64,000 nt of DNA from positions 124,001-188,000 of the forward strand of contig NZ_JASISY010000003.1 of NCBI RefSeq assembly GCF_030063365.1. The letters are read 5' to 3'. This document shows positions 27,979 through 33,830 of this stretch, in pieces. The DNA comes from Cryobacterium sp. PH29-G1 (GTDB lineage: Bacteria > Actinomycetota > Actinomycetes > Actinomycetales > Microbacteriaceae). The notes beneath the pieces were generated by a model, which had not been told where the DNA came from, searched no databases, and saw nothing but the letters and a program-made list of their open reading frames with translations. The translations under genes were made by a program, and so were the position numbers. The number at the start of each line of letters is the position of its first letter. The stretch's first letter is position 1.

Positions 27979-29750
<1,772 letters not shown>

Positions 29751-29773: not shown

Positions 29774-30628
29774 TCAGCGGGCGAGCGCGGCCAGCTCGGC
29801 CCGGCTCGAGGCACCGACCTTGCGCAACAGGTTGGCCACGTGAAACTTCACAGTGTTCTCGCTGATGGTCAGGGCCTCGGCGATCGCCTTGTTGCGCGCG
29901 CCCGAGGCGACGAGTTGGAGCACACCGCGTTCGCGCGGGCTGAGACCCCAGGCTGCGGCGCCGGTGACGGATGCCGTGGGCGCGTCGAGCGGGAGCGATA
30001 CCGCCATTTCGGATCCCCATCCGGCGGTCGACTCCACGCTGAGCGTGCCGCTGAGCGCCACGACGCGAGCGGCCAGTTGGCGCACGCTCGGCACTTCGGC
30101 ATCGAGGTCGCCCGGTCCGTCGTCCCGAATGCGAATGAGCAGGTTGCTGCCGTCGCAGTCCCACTGCACCCGCACCCGCGCCACACCGGCTTGTTCGACC
30201 AGGGCCAGTACAGCTCCGCGAACGATGGCACGGGCCTCGTGGGCGACTTCGCCGGGCAGGGCGCGACCGTTCACCGGTGGCTCCACGAACTGCACGTCGA
30301 CGTCGCCGAACCGCACGAGCGGGCGCAGGTCGTCGCGCAGCCGTTCGAAGGCGCGGGCCACCGGTTCCTCGGTGAGGCTGCGGTCGAGGTCGCTCACCGC
30401 GCGCAGGGCGACCATCGCCGCCGCGGCCAGATCGGTGGCCTGTTGACGCGCTATGGGGTCACTCGTGCTGCGCGAGCGCAGCACGGCGAGCAGCGATTCC
30501 AGCGTGGTCGCGTGCGCGTCGGTGAGGTCGGCAATGAGCATGGAGCGTTCGGCCGCTGCCGAACGCGCTGTCTGTGCGGTCTGTGCCGTCTGCAGCGTCT
30601 GCACGGGAGAAATAGCGGGGAGCGTCAT
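29774..30628 (-). CDS. Degenerate histidine kinase-like ATPase fused to a LuxR helix-turn-helix
   Basis: 284 residues. After a repetitive QTAQTAQTA leader, residues about 28-110 resemble the HisKA_3 dimerisation domain of NarL-type kinases, but the phosphoacceptor histidine position reads LTD instead of LHD. Residues about 115-215 resemble a HATPase_c domain: the G1-like box RIRDDGPG and a G2-like GWGSEMAVSLP remain, while the N box asparagine is not evident. The C-terminal 65 residues are a LuxR/GerE helix-turn-helix (LSPRERGVLQLVASGARNKA, then ISENTVKFHVANLLRKVG). It is divergent from hxlB, with two direct repeats in the shared promoter, so it probably regulates the RuMP genes. Whether it binds ATP or a ligand is unknown. 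Confidence 0.78.
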   Translation of the reverse strand: MTLPAISPVQTLQTAQTAQTARSAAAERSMLIADLTDAHATTLESLLAVLRSRSTSDPIARQQATDLAAAAMVALRAVSDLDRSLTEEPVARAFERLRDDLRPLVRFGDVDVQFVEPPVNGRALPGEVAHEARAIVRGAVLALVEQAGVARVRVQWDCDGSNLLIRIRDDGPGDLDAEVPSVRQLAARVVALSGTLSVESTAGWGSEMAVSLPLDAPTASVTGAAAWGLSPRERGVLQLVASGARNKAIAEALTISENTVKFHVANLLRKVGASSRAELAALAR

Positions 30629-30663: not shown

Positions 30664-30700
30664 GAAAACCATTCGTTTGAGTAGGAAAACCGTTCCTTTG
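30664..30700. promoter_or_regulatory. Two direct repeats in the LuxR-hxlB intergenic region
   Basis: GAAAACCATTCGTTTG (30664-30679) and GAAAACCGTTCCTTTG (30685-30700) differ at two positions and repeat every 21 bases, two helix turns. They sit between the divergent LuxR-type gene and hxlB, the expected place for the regulator's binding sites. Confidence 0.65.
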
Positions 30701-30740
30701 GCGGGCCGCATCCCTGCTCGAAGGAGTGGACCATTGACCT

Positions 30741-31325
30741 ATGACCGATACCGCAACCATTCCGGGCACAACGGATGCCCTCGACCTTATTCTCTCGGAG
30801 AACAGCCGCGTCGCCGACGCGCTGGGGGCGGCATCCGCTTCATCGCTTGATGATGCGGCCGGACTGCTCGCGGCGGCTCCGCGCATTTTTGTGCTCGGAG
30901 CCGGCCGCTCGGGACTGGCGCTGAAGATGACCGCGATGCGACTGATGCACCTCGGCCGTACGGTGCACGTGGTCGGCGAGGTGACCACCCCGGCGATCGC
31001 GTCGAATGACGTGCTGCTGGTGGCGAGCGGATCCGGAACGACGGGCGCCATCGTGCGCGCCGCCGAGACGGCTCACGGCGTGGGGGCGAGTATCGTCGCG
31101 CTCACGACGGCGCCCGATTCGCCACTGGGCCGGGTCGCTGCGGTGACCGTGGTCATTCCCGCGGCCGCCAAGCAGGACCACGCCGGGCAGATGTCGGCGC
31201 AATACTCGGGCGGCTTGTTCGAGCAGGCCGTGCTCCTCGTGGGCGATGCCCTGTTTCACACCCTCTGGCACCGGAGCGGGGCCACGGCCGCCGAGCTCTG
31301 GCCCCGCCACGCCAACCTCGAATAA
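30741..31325 (+). CDS. hxlB: 6-phospho-3-hexuloisomerase
   Basis: Isomerises 3-hexulose 6-phosphate to fructose 6-phosphate, the second step of formaldehyde fixation in the RuMP pathway. 194 residues of a SIS-domain protein: FVLGAGRSGLALKMTAMRLMHLG near 45 and the sugar-phosphate loop ASGSGTTGAIVRAAE near 95, with QDHAGQMSAQYSGGLFEQ near 145 typical of PHI. AAGGAG lies unusually far (about 15 bases) from ATG 30741, and no nearer in-frame start exists. hxlA follows after 107 repeat-rich bases. In a heterotroph this pair usually detoxifies formaldehyde. Confidence 0.93.
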   Translation: MTDTATIPGTTDALDLILSENSRVADALGAASASSLDDAAGLLAAAPRIFVLGAGRSGLALKMTAMRLMHLGRTVHVVGEVTTPAIASNDVLLVASGSGTTGAIVRAAETAHGVGASIVALTTAPDSPLGRVAAVTVVIPAAAKQDHAGQMSAQYSGGLFEQAVLLVGDALFHTLWHRSGATAAELWPRHANLE

Positions 31326-31330
31326 TACCC

Positions 31331-31397
31331 ACCGGGCCCGGGCCCGGAAACCAGGCCCAGGTTAGATCATGGGCCCACTTTCCGGGCCCGGGCCCGG
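31331..31397 (+). repeat. GGGCCC-rich repeat between hxlB and hxlA
   Basis: CCGGGCCCGGGCCCGG (31332-31347) and, after TAGATCATGGGCCC (31363-31376), the unit GGGCCCACTTTCCGGGCC continuing to 31397. The same TAGATCATGGGCCC word and nearly the same 27-bp unit reappear behind hxlA (32129-32193). The two CCGGGCCC blocks can pair as a stem around 31363. Confidence 0.75.
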
Positions 31398-31432: not shown

Positions 31433-32056
31433 TTGAAGCTTCAGGTTGCAATGGACGTATTGACCACCGACGCCGCGCTCGCACTCGCCGCCCAGGTTGC
31501 CCCGCACGTGGACATCATCGAGCTCGGCACCCCGCTGATCAAGGCCGAGGGGCTGCGTGCCGTCACCGCGATCAAGGCCGCGCACCCCGACAAGATCGTT
31601 TTCGCCGACCTCAAAACGATGGATGCCGGCGAGCTCGAAGCCGACATCGCCTTCGCCGCGGGAGCCGACCTCGTGACCGTGCTTGGCACGGCCGGCGACA
31701 GCACCATCATCGGTGCCGTTGCCGCTGCGACCAAGCACGGCAAGGGCATCGTCGTCGACCTCATCGGCGTTGCCGATAAGGTTGCCCGGGCCCGCGAGGC
31801 CATCGCGCTCGGCGCGCAGTTCGTGGAGATGCACGCCGGACTCGACGAGCAGGCTGAGCCCGGCTTCTCGCTCGCCAAGCTGCTGAGCCAGGGCGAAAGC
31901 GCCAAGGTTCCGTTCTCGCTCGCCGGTGGCGTGAACCTCGCGACCATTAAATCGGTACAGCGTGCCGGAGCCTCCGTCGCCGTTGCCGGTGGCGCGATCT
32001 ACGGCGCTGACGACCCGGCCGCCGCCGCTGCCGCCCTGCGTGCCGCCATTATCTAG
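31433..32056 (+). CDS. hxlA: 3-hexulose-6-phosphate synthase
   Basis: Condenses formaldehyde with ribulose 5-phosphate, the key capturing step of the RuMP pathway. 207 residues of the OMP-decarboxylase superfamily; the metal-binding DLKTMD motif lies near residue 62, with IELGTPLIKAEG near 28 and the phosphate-binding SLAGGVN and VAGGAIYG loops near 163 and 185. The start is TTG 31433, giving the family-typical MKLQVA N-terminus; the ATG at 31451 would remove it. Repeats on both sides isolate the gene from hxlB and from the following oxidoreductase. Confidence 0.94.
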   Translation: MKLQVAMDVLTTDAALALAAQVAPHVDIIELGTPLIKAEGLRAVTAIKAAHPDKIVFADLKTMDAGELEADIAFAAGADLVTVLGTAGDSTIIGAVAAATKHGKGIVVDLIGVADKVARAREAIALGAQFVEMHAGLDEQAEPGFSLAKLLSQGESAKVPFSLAGGVNLATIKSVQRAGASVAVAGGAIYGADDPAAAAAALRAAII

Positions 32057-32122: not shown

Positions 32123-32167
32123 CACGCTAGATCATGGGCCCGGCAACCGGGCCCATGATCTAGCGTG
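32123..32167. terminator. Perfect 21-bp-arm palindrome after hxlA
   Basis: Arms 32123-32143 and 32147-32167 are exact inverted copies (outer word CACGCTAGATC) around the loop CAA. It begins 67 bases after the hxlA stop and probably ends its transcript, although no T run follows. The inner word TAGATCATGGGCCC also occurs before hxlA. Confidence 0.7.
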
Positions 32168-32193
32168 GGCCCACTTGCCGGGCCCGGGCCCGG
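32167..32193 (+). repeat. 27-bp direct repeat, second copy (partner of 31371-31397)
   Basis: GGGCCCACTTGCCGGGCC continuing to 32193 matches 31371-31397 except for one base. The two copies flank hxlA in the same orientation. Confidence 0.75.
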
Positions 32194-32195
32194 TT

Positions 32196-32291
32196 GGACG
32201 TGTACGTGTGCGGACGTGTACGTGTGCGGATGTGTACGTGTGCGGATGTGTACGTGTGCGGACGTGTACGTGTGCGGACGTGCGGACGTGC
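32196..32291 (+). repeat. 16-bp minisatellite
   Basis: Five head-to-tail copies of GGAYGTGTACGTGTGC (32196-32275; the Y is C in units 1, 2 and 5 and T in units 3 and 4) followed by two shortened 8-bp copies GGACGTGC. The gene-free stretch 32057-32393 therefore holds, in order, the palindrome, the 27-bp repeat, this array and about 100 bases leading to the next gene. Length variation between strains is likely. Confidence 0.88.
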
Positions 32292-32393
32292 GGATGCGCG
32301 GGTGCGGGGATGTGCGGGCGGGGCGCAGGTCGCCGGTAGGCTGGTGGCGCCCGAGACAGTTGGCGGCATTGTCGCCGCGAGAGGACGCCCGTC

Positions 32394-33830
32394 GTGAACA
32401 TGACCACTACCATTTTCGACCGAGCTCGACCGGCGGCATCCGTTGTCGCTGAAGCACTGACCGGCACCCGGCAGGGCTCGTTTTGGCTCGAAGATCTCGA
32501 GCCGCGCGCACAGTATCCTCGGCTTTCCGGTGATCTGAACTGCGACCTCGCGATAGTCGGTGGCGGTTATCTCGGCCTGTGGAGCGCGGTGCTGGCTAAG
32601 CAGCAGAATCCAGCCGCCCGGGTGATACTGCTGGAGGCGCGCACGGTCGGATGGGCGGCATCCGGTCGCAATGGCGGCTTCTGCGAGGCAAGCCTCACGC
32701 ACGGCGAAGAAAACGGGCGGAGTCGCTGGCCGCAGGAGTTCGATCGATTGACCGAACTCGGCCACGAAAACCTCGACGAGATTGAGAGGGCTGTGGCCCG
32801 CCTCGGTCTCGACTGCGATTTCGAACGCACCGGTTCCATCGACCTGGCCATTGAAGACCACCAGATTGAGTGGCTGCGCGAGGAAACGACCGACCAAAAC
32901 ACTGTGTTCCTCGACACGGCGGCCGTGCAGGCCGAGGTGTCGTCGCCGACCTATCTGGCGGGGGTCTGGCACCGGCGCAGCAACGCTCTCGTGCATCCGG
33001 GCAAGTTGGCCGCCGAGCTGGCTCGCGTGGCTACCGAGCTTGGCGTTGAAATCTTCGAGCACTCCCTCGTGCAGAACCTGGACACCGCCGGTCGCACGCC
33101 CGGCCAGGGCACCCGGGTGGTCACCGCGGGCGGCACCGTGACGGCCGAGAAGACGGCGCTCGCCACGAACGTCTTTCCCTCGCTGCTCAAGCGCAACAAG
33201 CTGGCCACCGTGCCGGTCTACGACTACGTGATCATGACCGAGCCGCTCGATGCCGCGCAGCTTGCCGCGATCGGCTGGCAGAACCGGCAGGGCCTGGCCG
33301 ACCTGGCCAACCAATTTCACTACTACCGGCTGAGTGCCGACAACCGCATTCTGTTCGGTGGCTACGACGCTATTTACCACTACGGCCGGAAGGTGCGCAG
33401 CGGCTACGAGAACCGACCGGAAACCTTCGAGAAGCTGGCGAATCACTTCTTCACGACGTTTCCGCAGCTCGCCGGGGTGCGCTTCAGTCACAAGTGGGCC
33501 GGCGCGATCGACACGTCCACGCAGTTCTGCGCGTTTTTCGGCCAGGCCCGCGGCGGGCGCATCAGCTACGCCGCAGGATTCACCGGCCTCGGCGTGGGTG
33601 CCACTCACTTCGCGGCCCAGGTCATGCTCGACCAGCTGGCCGGCCGCACCACGGAGCGCACGGAACTGGCCATGGTGCGGGGCCGTCCGCTGCCGTTCCC
33701 GCCGGAGCCCGCGGCATCCGCCGGCATTCAGGCGACCCGGTGGGCGCTCAACCGTGCCGACCACGACCGCGGAAAGCGCAACGCCCTGCTCAAGACCCTC
33801 GACGCCCTCGGCCTGGGCTTCGACTCCTAG
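32394..33830 (+). CDS. FAD-dependent oxidoreductase (DAO / gamma-glutamylputrescine oxidase-like)
   Basis: 478 residues from GTG 32394 (AGAGGA about 8 bases upstream; ATG 32400 is the alternative). The ADP-binding motif IVGGGYLGLWSAVLA lies near residue 53, followed by GRNGGFCEAS near 91, a pattern shared with PuuB-type amine oxidases, and a C-terminal FAD contact GFTGLGVGATHFAAQ near 400. It probably oxidises a secondary amine or amino acid derivative. Placement behind hxlBA hints at a substrate releasing formaldehyde on oxidation (an N-methyl compound), but the strong palindrome in between argues for separate transcription. Its stop TAG lies in a CTAG shared with the repeat of the converging phosphatase gene. 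Confidence 0.82.
   Translation: MNMTTTIFDRARPAASVVAEALTGTRQGSFWLEDLEPRAQYPRLSGDLNCDLAIVGGGYLGLWSAVLAKQQNPAARVILLEARTVGWAASGRNGGFCEASLTHGEENGRSRWPQEFDRLTELGHENLDEIERAVARLGLDCDFERTGSIDLAIEDHQIEWLREETTDQNTVFLDTAAVQAEVSSPTYLAGVWHRRSNALVHPGKLAAELARVATELGVEIFEHSLVQNLDTAGRTPGQGTRVVTAGGTVTAEKTALATNVFPSLLKRNKLATVPVYDYVIMTEPLDAAQLAAIGWQNRQGLADLANQFHYYRLSADNRILFGGYDAIYHYGRKVRSGYENRPETFEKLANHFFTTFPQLAGVRFSHKWAGAIDTSTQFCAFFGQARGGRISYAAGFTGLGVGATHFAAQVMLDQLAGRTTERTELAMVRGRPLPFPPEPAASAGIQATRWALNRADHDRGKRNALLKTLDALGLGFDS

Follow-up and report, generated by a model that had tools for sequence, protein, structure and literature searches.

What does a protein that resembles a histidine kinase without its phosphoacceptor, and that carries its own DNA-binding domain, do beside genes for the fixation of formaldehyde? 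The question is raised by a gene in the 64,000 nucleotides of Cryobacterium sp. PH29-G1 DNA that were analysed here (the window), which a first-pass annotation had read as HisKA_3- and HATPase-like regions fused to a LuxR helix-turn-helix (HTH), with the phosphoacceptor histidine replaced (LTD for LHD). The gene, the domains predicted in its product and its presumed targets are as follows:

29774-30628, minus strand: regulator gene (degenerate histidine-kinase module plus LuxR HTH), a 284-residue open reading frame at exactly these positions
29777-29947, minus strand: LuxR/NarL-type HTH, about residues 228-284 (Pfam PF00196)
29981-30367, minus strand: ATPase (CA)-like domain, about residues 88-216, from alignments and model; N-box Asn replaced by Ala142, DDGPG (169-173) kept, lid glycine motif absent
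30380-30565, minus strand: DHp-like helix pair, about residues 22-83, from the model (predicted helices 8-51 and 57-83)
30741-31325, plus strand: hxlB, 6-phospho-3-hexuloisomerase, presumed target (NCBIfam TIGR03127, over the equivalog cut-off)
31433-32056, plus strand: hxlA, 3-hexulose-6-phosphate synthase, presumed target, listed with a TTG start (NCBIfam TIGR03128, over the equivalog cut-off)

Pfam GerE (PF00196) matched residues 229-283 of the 284-residue regulator at 72 bits against a cut-off of 23.5, and a C-terminal LuxR HTH can be assigned with certainty from the sequence. HATPase_c scored 18 bits, under its cut-off of 26.4, and HisKA_3 was absent among the Pfam matches, so that the DHp assignment rests on the register described below and on the model; no receiver family was found among Pfam matches up to E 10, nor was there a Pfam match to an autoinducer-binding or ATP-binding LAL domain. 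NCBIfam matches were HTH-only similarities, for example to NarL and MadR, together with a weak match of residues 139-213 to the UhpB kinase. A profile built from 44 relatives of the regulator reached the DevS ATPase domain (PDB) by sequence with an E value of 5.2e-05, and hhalign aligned the same profile, over regulator residues 92-213, with an intact sensor kinase that this genome encodes (E 3e-7, probability 93). In the AlphaFold2 model (mean pLDDT 81, pTM 0.54) a pair of long helices and the HTH accompany an ATPase-domain fold, the relative arrangement of these domains being unreliable at that pTM. Foldseek searches with the model returned DesK, VraS and other kinases, with E values down to 2.7e-09, and a second structural aligner placed VraS on it with a Z score of 17.4 and an rmsd of 2.5 Å over 129 residues. 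The HATPase-like region and the LuxR HTH of the earlier reading are thus both present in one protein, and its HisKA_3-like region survives as DHp-like helices in the model but not as a Pfam HisKA_3 match. Alignments and model together indicate that the kinase part is real but diverged.

The extent of this divergence was read from an alignment of 82 rows, comprising 80 relatives, the window regulator and a paralogue from its own genome, in which the position of the phosphoacceptor is taken, in the window regulator, by:

30521-30523, minus strand: Thr36, in place of the phosphoacceptor His (ungapped register by eye; column counts)

The LTD-for-LHD register was judged by eye, without gaps, as hhalign left that stretch unaligned, and in this register the column holds T in 59 of the 80 rows with a letter, then V (8), A (4), G (4), S (3), M (1) and H (1), with gaps in the other 2. 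The sole histidine occurs within an LHD motif, which supports the register; it belongs to L054 (Marisediminicola senii), the only one of the 80 rows with a letter to have it, whose N-box is lost like that of the rest. At positions taken from the hhalign alignment with the intact kinase of the same genome, the N-box asparagine is replaced by alanine in 80/82 rows (Ala142 in the window regulator) and the glutamate four residues before it by glycine in 76/82, and the lid glycine motif of that kinase has no counterpart in the regulator. The DDGxG box has been kept, with D169, G171 and G173 in all 82 rows and D170 in 79, and Asp169, Gly171, Trp156, Trp204 and Gly205 were identical in 106/106 rows (two of which are duplicate rows of this genome), indicating that part of the predicted former ATP pocket is under strict conservation. 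With the phosphoacceptor, N-box and lid motifs all lost, catalysis is very unlikely, and the regulator almost certainly has no kinase activity. The replaced histidine of the first-pass annotation is therefore upheld, in the register by eye, but the degeneration is not limited to that residue, as the N-box and lid have gone with it. The best reading of the protein is a LuxR one-component regulator apparently built on a pseudokinase.

Linkage to hxlBA was examined in the best 80 of 342 relatives, kept for neighbourhood reading with 5-kb flanks. Within these flanks hxlB was found in 73 of the 80, and it was divergent from the regulator in 69 of these, co-directional in 3 (L039, L045 and L049) and convergent in 1 (L077). 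Among the other 7, two lie at contig ends (L059 and L071), two adjoin fdhA (L070 and L076) and one adjoins transketolase (L072); a further one of the 7, L041, is without a recognised neighbour. The record of L041 is titled Rhodococcus jostii NBRC 16295, and its regulator falls among those of the Microbacteriaceae in the tree, which points to transfer or to a foreign contig. At L031 (Cryobacterium zongtaii), the last of the 7, hxlBA has gone from the 5-kb flanks, where a regulator with the N-terminal domain described below and the adjoining HAD gene remain; at L063/L159 (Cryobacterium breve ERMR7:08) the regulator is spread over three frames, by frame-shifts or sequence errors, beside an intact hxlBA and an exact copy of the palindrome described below; and at L080 (Flexivirga endophytica) hxlBA is flanked by a regulator copy on each side, and pentose-phosphate genes lie beyond these.

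An even draw of 199 Microbacteriaceae genomes (regulator at E ≤ 1e-30, hxlA all over the family cut-off) gave the regulator in 53, hxlA in 52 and both in 51 (Fisher p 7e-44, ignoring kinship). In this draw 48 of the 55 hxlA copies had a regulator within 5 kb, in every case in divergent orientation; of the remaining 7 copies, three start less than 300 bases from a contig end (G544, G336 and G487), the second copies of G000 and G195 are about 9 kb from a regulator, that of G408 is 823 kb away, and G564 has hxlA without a regulator at the threshold used. In the two genomes with a regulator and no hxlA (G486 and G526), the regulator is divergent from an fdhA homologue that is 89% identical to that of G138, and so every one of the 53 regulator-bearing genomes has hxlA or fdhA. 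At the level of the class (394 genomes; regulator at E ≤ 1e-20) the regulator was found in 21 genomes, at 26 places, and HxlA over the family cut-off in 7, all of them within the 21; 16 further genomes gave weaker HxlA-family matches. The close placing of a kinase module without phosphoacceptor beside formaldehyde-fixing genes, pointed out earlier for the window, where hxlB and hxlA adjoin it on the other strand and pass their cut-offs, therefore extends to its orthologues, and the regulator is very likely dedicated to the adjacent formaldehyde genes.

Several further features were seen around the locus. A TPP riboswitch lies before thiC at 29643-29750 on the minus strand (Rfam RF00059, E 4.6e-10; its 53.1 bits fall narrowly short of the gathering score, which is 54.3). 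The flanks of hxlA hold two 58-bp repeats that are rich in G+C and share 84% identity (31340-31397 and 32136-32193), and a 16-bp tandem repeat array (32180-32314). Downstream of hxlA, at 32394-33830 on the plus strand, is a gene for an FAD-dependent oxidoreductase (Pfam DAO) that is kept at this place in many close Cryobacterium relatives; it may be a source of formaldehyde, by demethylation.

The neighbours of the class-level relatives were varied. Within 1.5-kb flanks, the 26 class-level places adjoin hxlBA in 7 cases, quinone-oxidoreductase-like genes in 9 (7 divergent and 2 downstream), transketolase and S-(hydroxymethyl)mycothiol dehydrogenase in 2 each and fdhA in 1; at the remaining 5 no neighbour was recognised. 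Both S-(hydroxymethyl)mycothiol dehydrogenase genes are divergent from their regulators (L104 and L106) and score 678 and 690 bits against an equivalog cut-off of 512.9; the glutathione-independent formaldehyde dehydrogenase gene divergent from L101 scores 752.8 against 636.95, and the FdhA homologues divergent from the regulators at L070, L076, G486 and G526 are 81-89% identical to the FdhA of L101. The quinone-oxidoreductase-like genes at L103, L110 and L111 pass no equivalog cut-off, and no neighbour of L112, L113, L115, L116 or L121 was identified as a formaldehyde gene. With 9 of the 26 places beside quinone-oxidoreductase-like genes and 5 without a recognised neighbour, it may be that not every member of the family has formaldehyde as its signal.

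A second formaldehyde island lies in the genome of the window itself:

Contig C11, loci L149 (1629-13922) and L095 (7357-15063): second formaldehyde island

It holds an N-demethylase-like pair (HODM alpha-like and DmmA-like), a GntR regulator, a second copy of hxlBA and a long-form paralogue of the regulator (435 residues, 58% identity) with a pentose-phosphate operon. The paralogue is divergent from genes for transketolase, transaldolase, Rpe, RpiB and 6-phosphogluconate dehydrogenase (tkt-tal-rpe-rpiB-gnd), the enzymes of RuMP regeneration and oxidation; the second hxlBA is about 9 kb from it and is followed by glucose-6-phosphate dehydrogenase and OpcA, with the N-demethylase-like pair further off. 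By their predicted products, the genes of this region make up a dissimilatory RuMP cycle. One 26-nt element has exactly two copies in the genome, before the paralogue-linked transketolase gene and before the second hxlB (reversed control 0). Elsewhere in the genome, close matches to the regulator were confined to the HTH, apart from this paralogue and, on contig C4, a kinase that neighbours a response regulator.

Regions upstream of hxlB in the relatives have in common a palindrome, CTACCC-N4-GGGTAG, which is a candidate operator. Counted with the window (L081) excluded, the best match had 0, 1 or 2 mismatches at 11, 29 and 18 of the 73 loci respectively (58/73 at no more than 2, the other 15 being without a site at this level), and 0.77% of dinucleotide shuffles of the same stretches came to 2 mismatches or fewer. 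The exact palindrome occurs once each in 5 of 12 whole genomes, and all 5 copies lie between a regulator and hxlB; with one mismatch allowed it is found at 1-6 places per genome, against 8-30 for a reversed control pattern, and is not specific. Its centre lies 63-66 nt before an in-frame start codon in 52 of the 55 loci having a site (the totals of 58 and 55 differ because the second count searched the unshifted stretch where the match starts inside hxlB). In these 52 loci a weaker site lies 21 bp nearer to hxlB, with C at +22 in 50 and G at +32 in 50, and a NANNAT-like stretch precedes the start, with A at -11 in 41, A at -8 in 35 and T at -7 in 43. The corresponding elements of the window are:

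30669-30684, no strand assigned: probable first operator site (site 1), a degraded copy of the palindrome with mismatches at 4 of its 12 specified bases; placed by positional homology, centre 64 nt before the hxlB start
30690-30705, no strand assigned: probable second and weaker site, 21 bp from site 1 on the hxlB side (column counts)
30729-30734, plus strand: possible -10-like NANNAT element just before hxlB (column counts)

A best match with 4 mismatches was reached in 37% of shuffles, and site 1 of the window is therefore not significant alone; another match with 4 mismatches lies at 30714. The distance of 64 nt is the same as in the near relatives, whose own sites have 1 to 4 mismatches. 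A first guess at the operator, GGAAAACCRTTCSTTT, had been made from two similar stretches of the window and was replaced by the palindrome after the family comparison, in which the two stretches proved to be the degraded palindrome and the weaker second site. A consensus scan found no sigma-70 promoter in the 112-bp intergenic region between regulator and hxlB. A -10-like element directly before hxlB would make the mRNA leaderless, and a palindrome at a fixed distance before the start is in an activator-like place; we infer that the transcript may be leaderless, with an activator placed near -64 and -43.

Most relatives outside the clade of the window are longer at the N-terminus by about 140-160 residues, among which a FTEDCTGRPQKKAG-like motif is conserved. 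By this comparison the family normally has an additional, predicted N-terminal domain, which is missing from the shortened window regulator. No Pfam domain, GAF included, was found in that region of the long form, and none of the structural matches of the long form extend over it; the order of its predicted helices and strands looks GAF-like to us. A tree of 104 core sequences (35 short and 69 long, the root being for drawing only) needs 3 changes of form, of which well-supported branches force at least 2, and all outgroup rows are long, so that the short form would be derived and has arisen at least twice. In the Microbacteriaceae draw, 29 of the 48 hxlA-adjacent regulators have open frames of no more than 330 residues.

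Without this domain the window regulator has a single cysteine:

30155-30157, minus strand: Cys158, sole cysteine of the window regulator, conserved in 77/77 hxl-linked proteins

Classes of neighbour were assigned by the analyst with one label per row, L080 and L077 being labelled tkt even though hxlBA is also near (the L080 regulator is directly divergent from hxlBA), and on these labels the Cys158 column is cysteine in 77/77 hxl-linked (34/34 of the short ones), 5/5 tkt-linked, 3/3 fdhA-linked, 1/2 mscR-linked and 0/9 qor-linked proteins. A second cysteine, in the N-terminal motif, is present in 43/43 long hxl-linked, 5/5 tkt-linked, 2/2 mscR-linked, 7/9 qor-linked and 0/3 fdhA-linked proteins and is absent from the short forms. 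Duplicates L089 and L090 were left out throughout and duplicates L099 and L119 from the tree and class table; L059, cut by a contig end, and the frame-shifted L063 did not enter the full-length alignment. HxlR, FrmR and AdhR use a conserved cysteine as formaldehyde sensors, according to the review PMC8879981, which makes Cys158 a candidate sensing residue, and we take it no further than that; its absence from all 9 qor-linked forms means that the groups may differ in signal.

The computation establishes the architecture, the loss of kinase motifs, the linkage, and a conserved palindrome with its fixed position, and from these we propose, as reasonably likely, that the protein is a one-component, kinase-dead activator which binds the palindrome and switches on hxlBA upon formaldehyde. 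A GAF-type sensor kinase of the NarL family would have been fused to a LuxR HTH and become a one-component transcription factor, whose kinase part, unable to phosphorylate, would serve as a platform that dimerises and responds to the signal. With formaldehyde, or an adduct formed directly from it, present, the HTH pair of the dimer would bind CTACCC-N4-GGGTAG, some 64 nt upstream of hxlB, and the weaker site 21 bp on; the bound dimer would activate the divergent hxlBA operon, and HxlBA would then fix formaldehyde onto ribulose 5-phosphate. That the regulator acts as an activator seems probable from the position of its putative site. As to the signal, we lean only slightly towards formaldehyde or a direct adduct, the case for which is made by neighbour genes from several formaldehyde pathways together with the fixed-position palindrome. 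A bolder version, which we hold to be doubtful, is that formaldehyde hydroxymethylates or cross-links Cys158, at the edge of the former ATP pocket, a modification which re-sets the pseudokinase dimer to turn hxlBA on, and that one family, through different sensing cysteines, controls the formaldehyde routes of actinobacteria by RuMP, FdhA and mycothiol.

Four other explanations have to be weighed. The old ATP pocket may have been kept to bind some metabolite, such as a hydroxymethylated thiol, a RuMP sugar phosphate or a nucleotide, and so report the state of the pathway and not formaldehyde itself; in favour of this, pocket-side residues are invariant in 106/106 rows although the Mg/ATP-handling N-box is lost, and a paralogue beside pentose-phosphate genes fits a sugar-phosphate signal. 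The cysteine beside the pocket, however, is as strictly kept in all hxl-linked forms, for which a pure pocket model has no need, and sugar-phosphate chemistry does not extend to the relatives that adjoin formaldehyde dehydrogenases, so we regard a metabolite as possible but not likely. A general sensor of reactive electrophiles or thiol stress, with formaldehyde one signal among them, is in our view rather unlikely: it suits the 9 of 26 class-level relatives that adjoin quinone-oxidoreductase-like genes and the N-terminal cysteine shared by long hxl-linked (43/43), mscR-linked (2/2) and qor-linked (7/9) forms, but that cysteine is missing from all 3 fdhA-linked and from the short forms, Cys158 is missing from all 9 qor-linked forms, and all 53 regulator-bearing Microbacteriaceae genomes have hxlA or fdhA.

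Divergent gene pairs that share an intergenic region are typical of repressors too, and the regulator could accordingly repress hxlBA until released by its signal. We think this improbable, as a palindrome 63-66 nt from the start (52/55), with the weaker site 21 bp nearer, lies upstream of, and not over, the presumed promoter core. It is decidedly improbable that the short form of the window clade is sensor-less, a signal-blind or partner-controlled activator giving basal hxlBA expression; the N-terminal domain is indeed missing from 35 of 104 rows, through at least 2 losses, but the core is kept as strictly as in the long forms (Cys158 in 34/34 short hxl-linked proteins), and most regulator-hxlA pairs have short frames (29/48 at no more than 330 residues). 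The family is a candidate for the local regulation of actinobacterial formaldehyde genes; its architecture is fixed and an operator can be predicted for it. Should the reading of the signal be true, a complete kinase module would have been re-used as a sensor without phosphotransfer, and the family would be a source of formaldehyde-responsive promoters.

Searches of open-licence papers gave no recognised description of this regulator family. The review PMC8879981 names FlhRS, HxlR, TtmR, AdhR and FrmR as formaldehyde regulators and RamA, RamB and GlxR as regulators of ald in Corynebacterium glutamicum, and states that the regulation of the mycothiol-dependent formaldehyde dehydrogenase gene of that species is not known. 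Of these, HxlR of Bacillus controls the same hxl genes that our regulator adjoins, and both proteins have a conserved cysteine; the same review describes HxlR as sensing formaldehyde by a Cys-Lys cross-link. HxlR is an unrelated protein of the MarR/DUF24 type, however, whose winged HTH is not among the Pfam matches of the regulator, and the regulator has three lysines only, all in the HTH (247, 261 and 270). RamA, a LuxR-type protein which regulates ald and methanol catabolism in C. glutamicum (PMC8879981), has the HTH in common with the regulator (64 columns by hhalign). Kinship with RamA beyond the HTH was considered and rejected, as the N-terminal part remained unaligned and the NF041673 model scored 22.3 bits against 500, over the HTH only. 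DfdR of Rhodococcus YK2, an aromatics sensor with a GAF-like domain and a LuxR HTH, resembles the long form as far as its partial description goes. In fold the regulator is like the NarL-family sensor kinases VraS, DesK and DevS/DosS, with which its model shares the DHp-like helices and ATPase fold (structural Z 17.4 for VraS, about 16 for DesK and 15.0 for DosS). Like kinases of the VraS, DesK and DevS type, the regulator keeps the DDGxG box, but unlike them it is without the phosphoacceptor His, the N-box Asn and the lid motif and is fused to its own DNA-binding domain. With LuxR/NarL-FixJ one-component regulators it shares the C-terminal GerE domain, and it differs from them by the predicted dead kinase module at its N-terminus.
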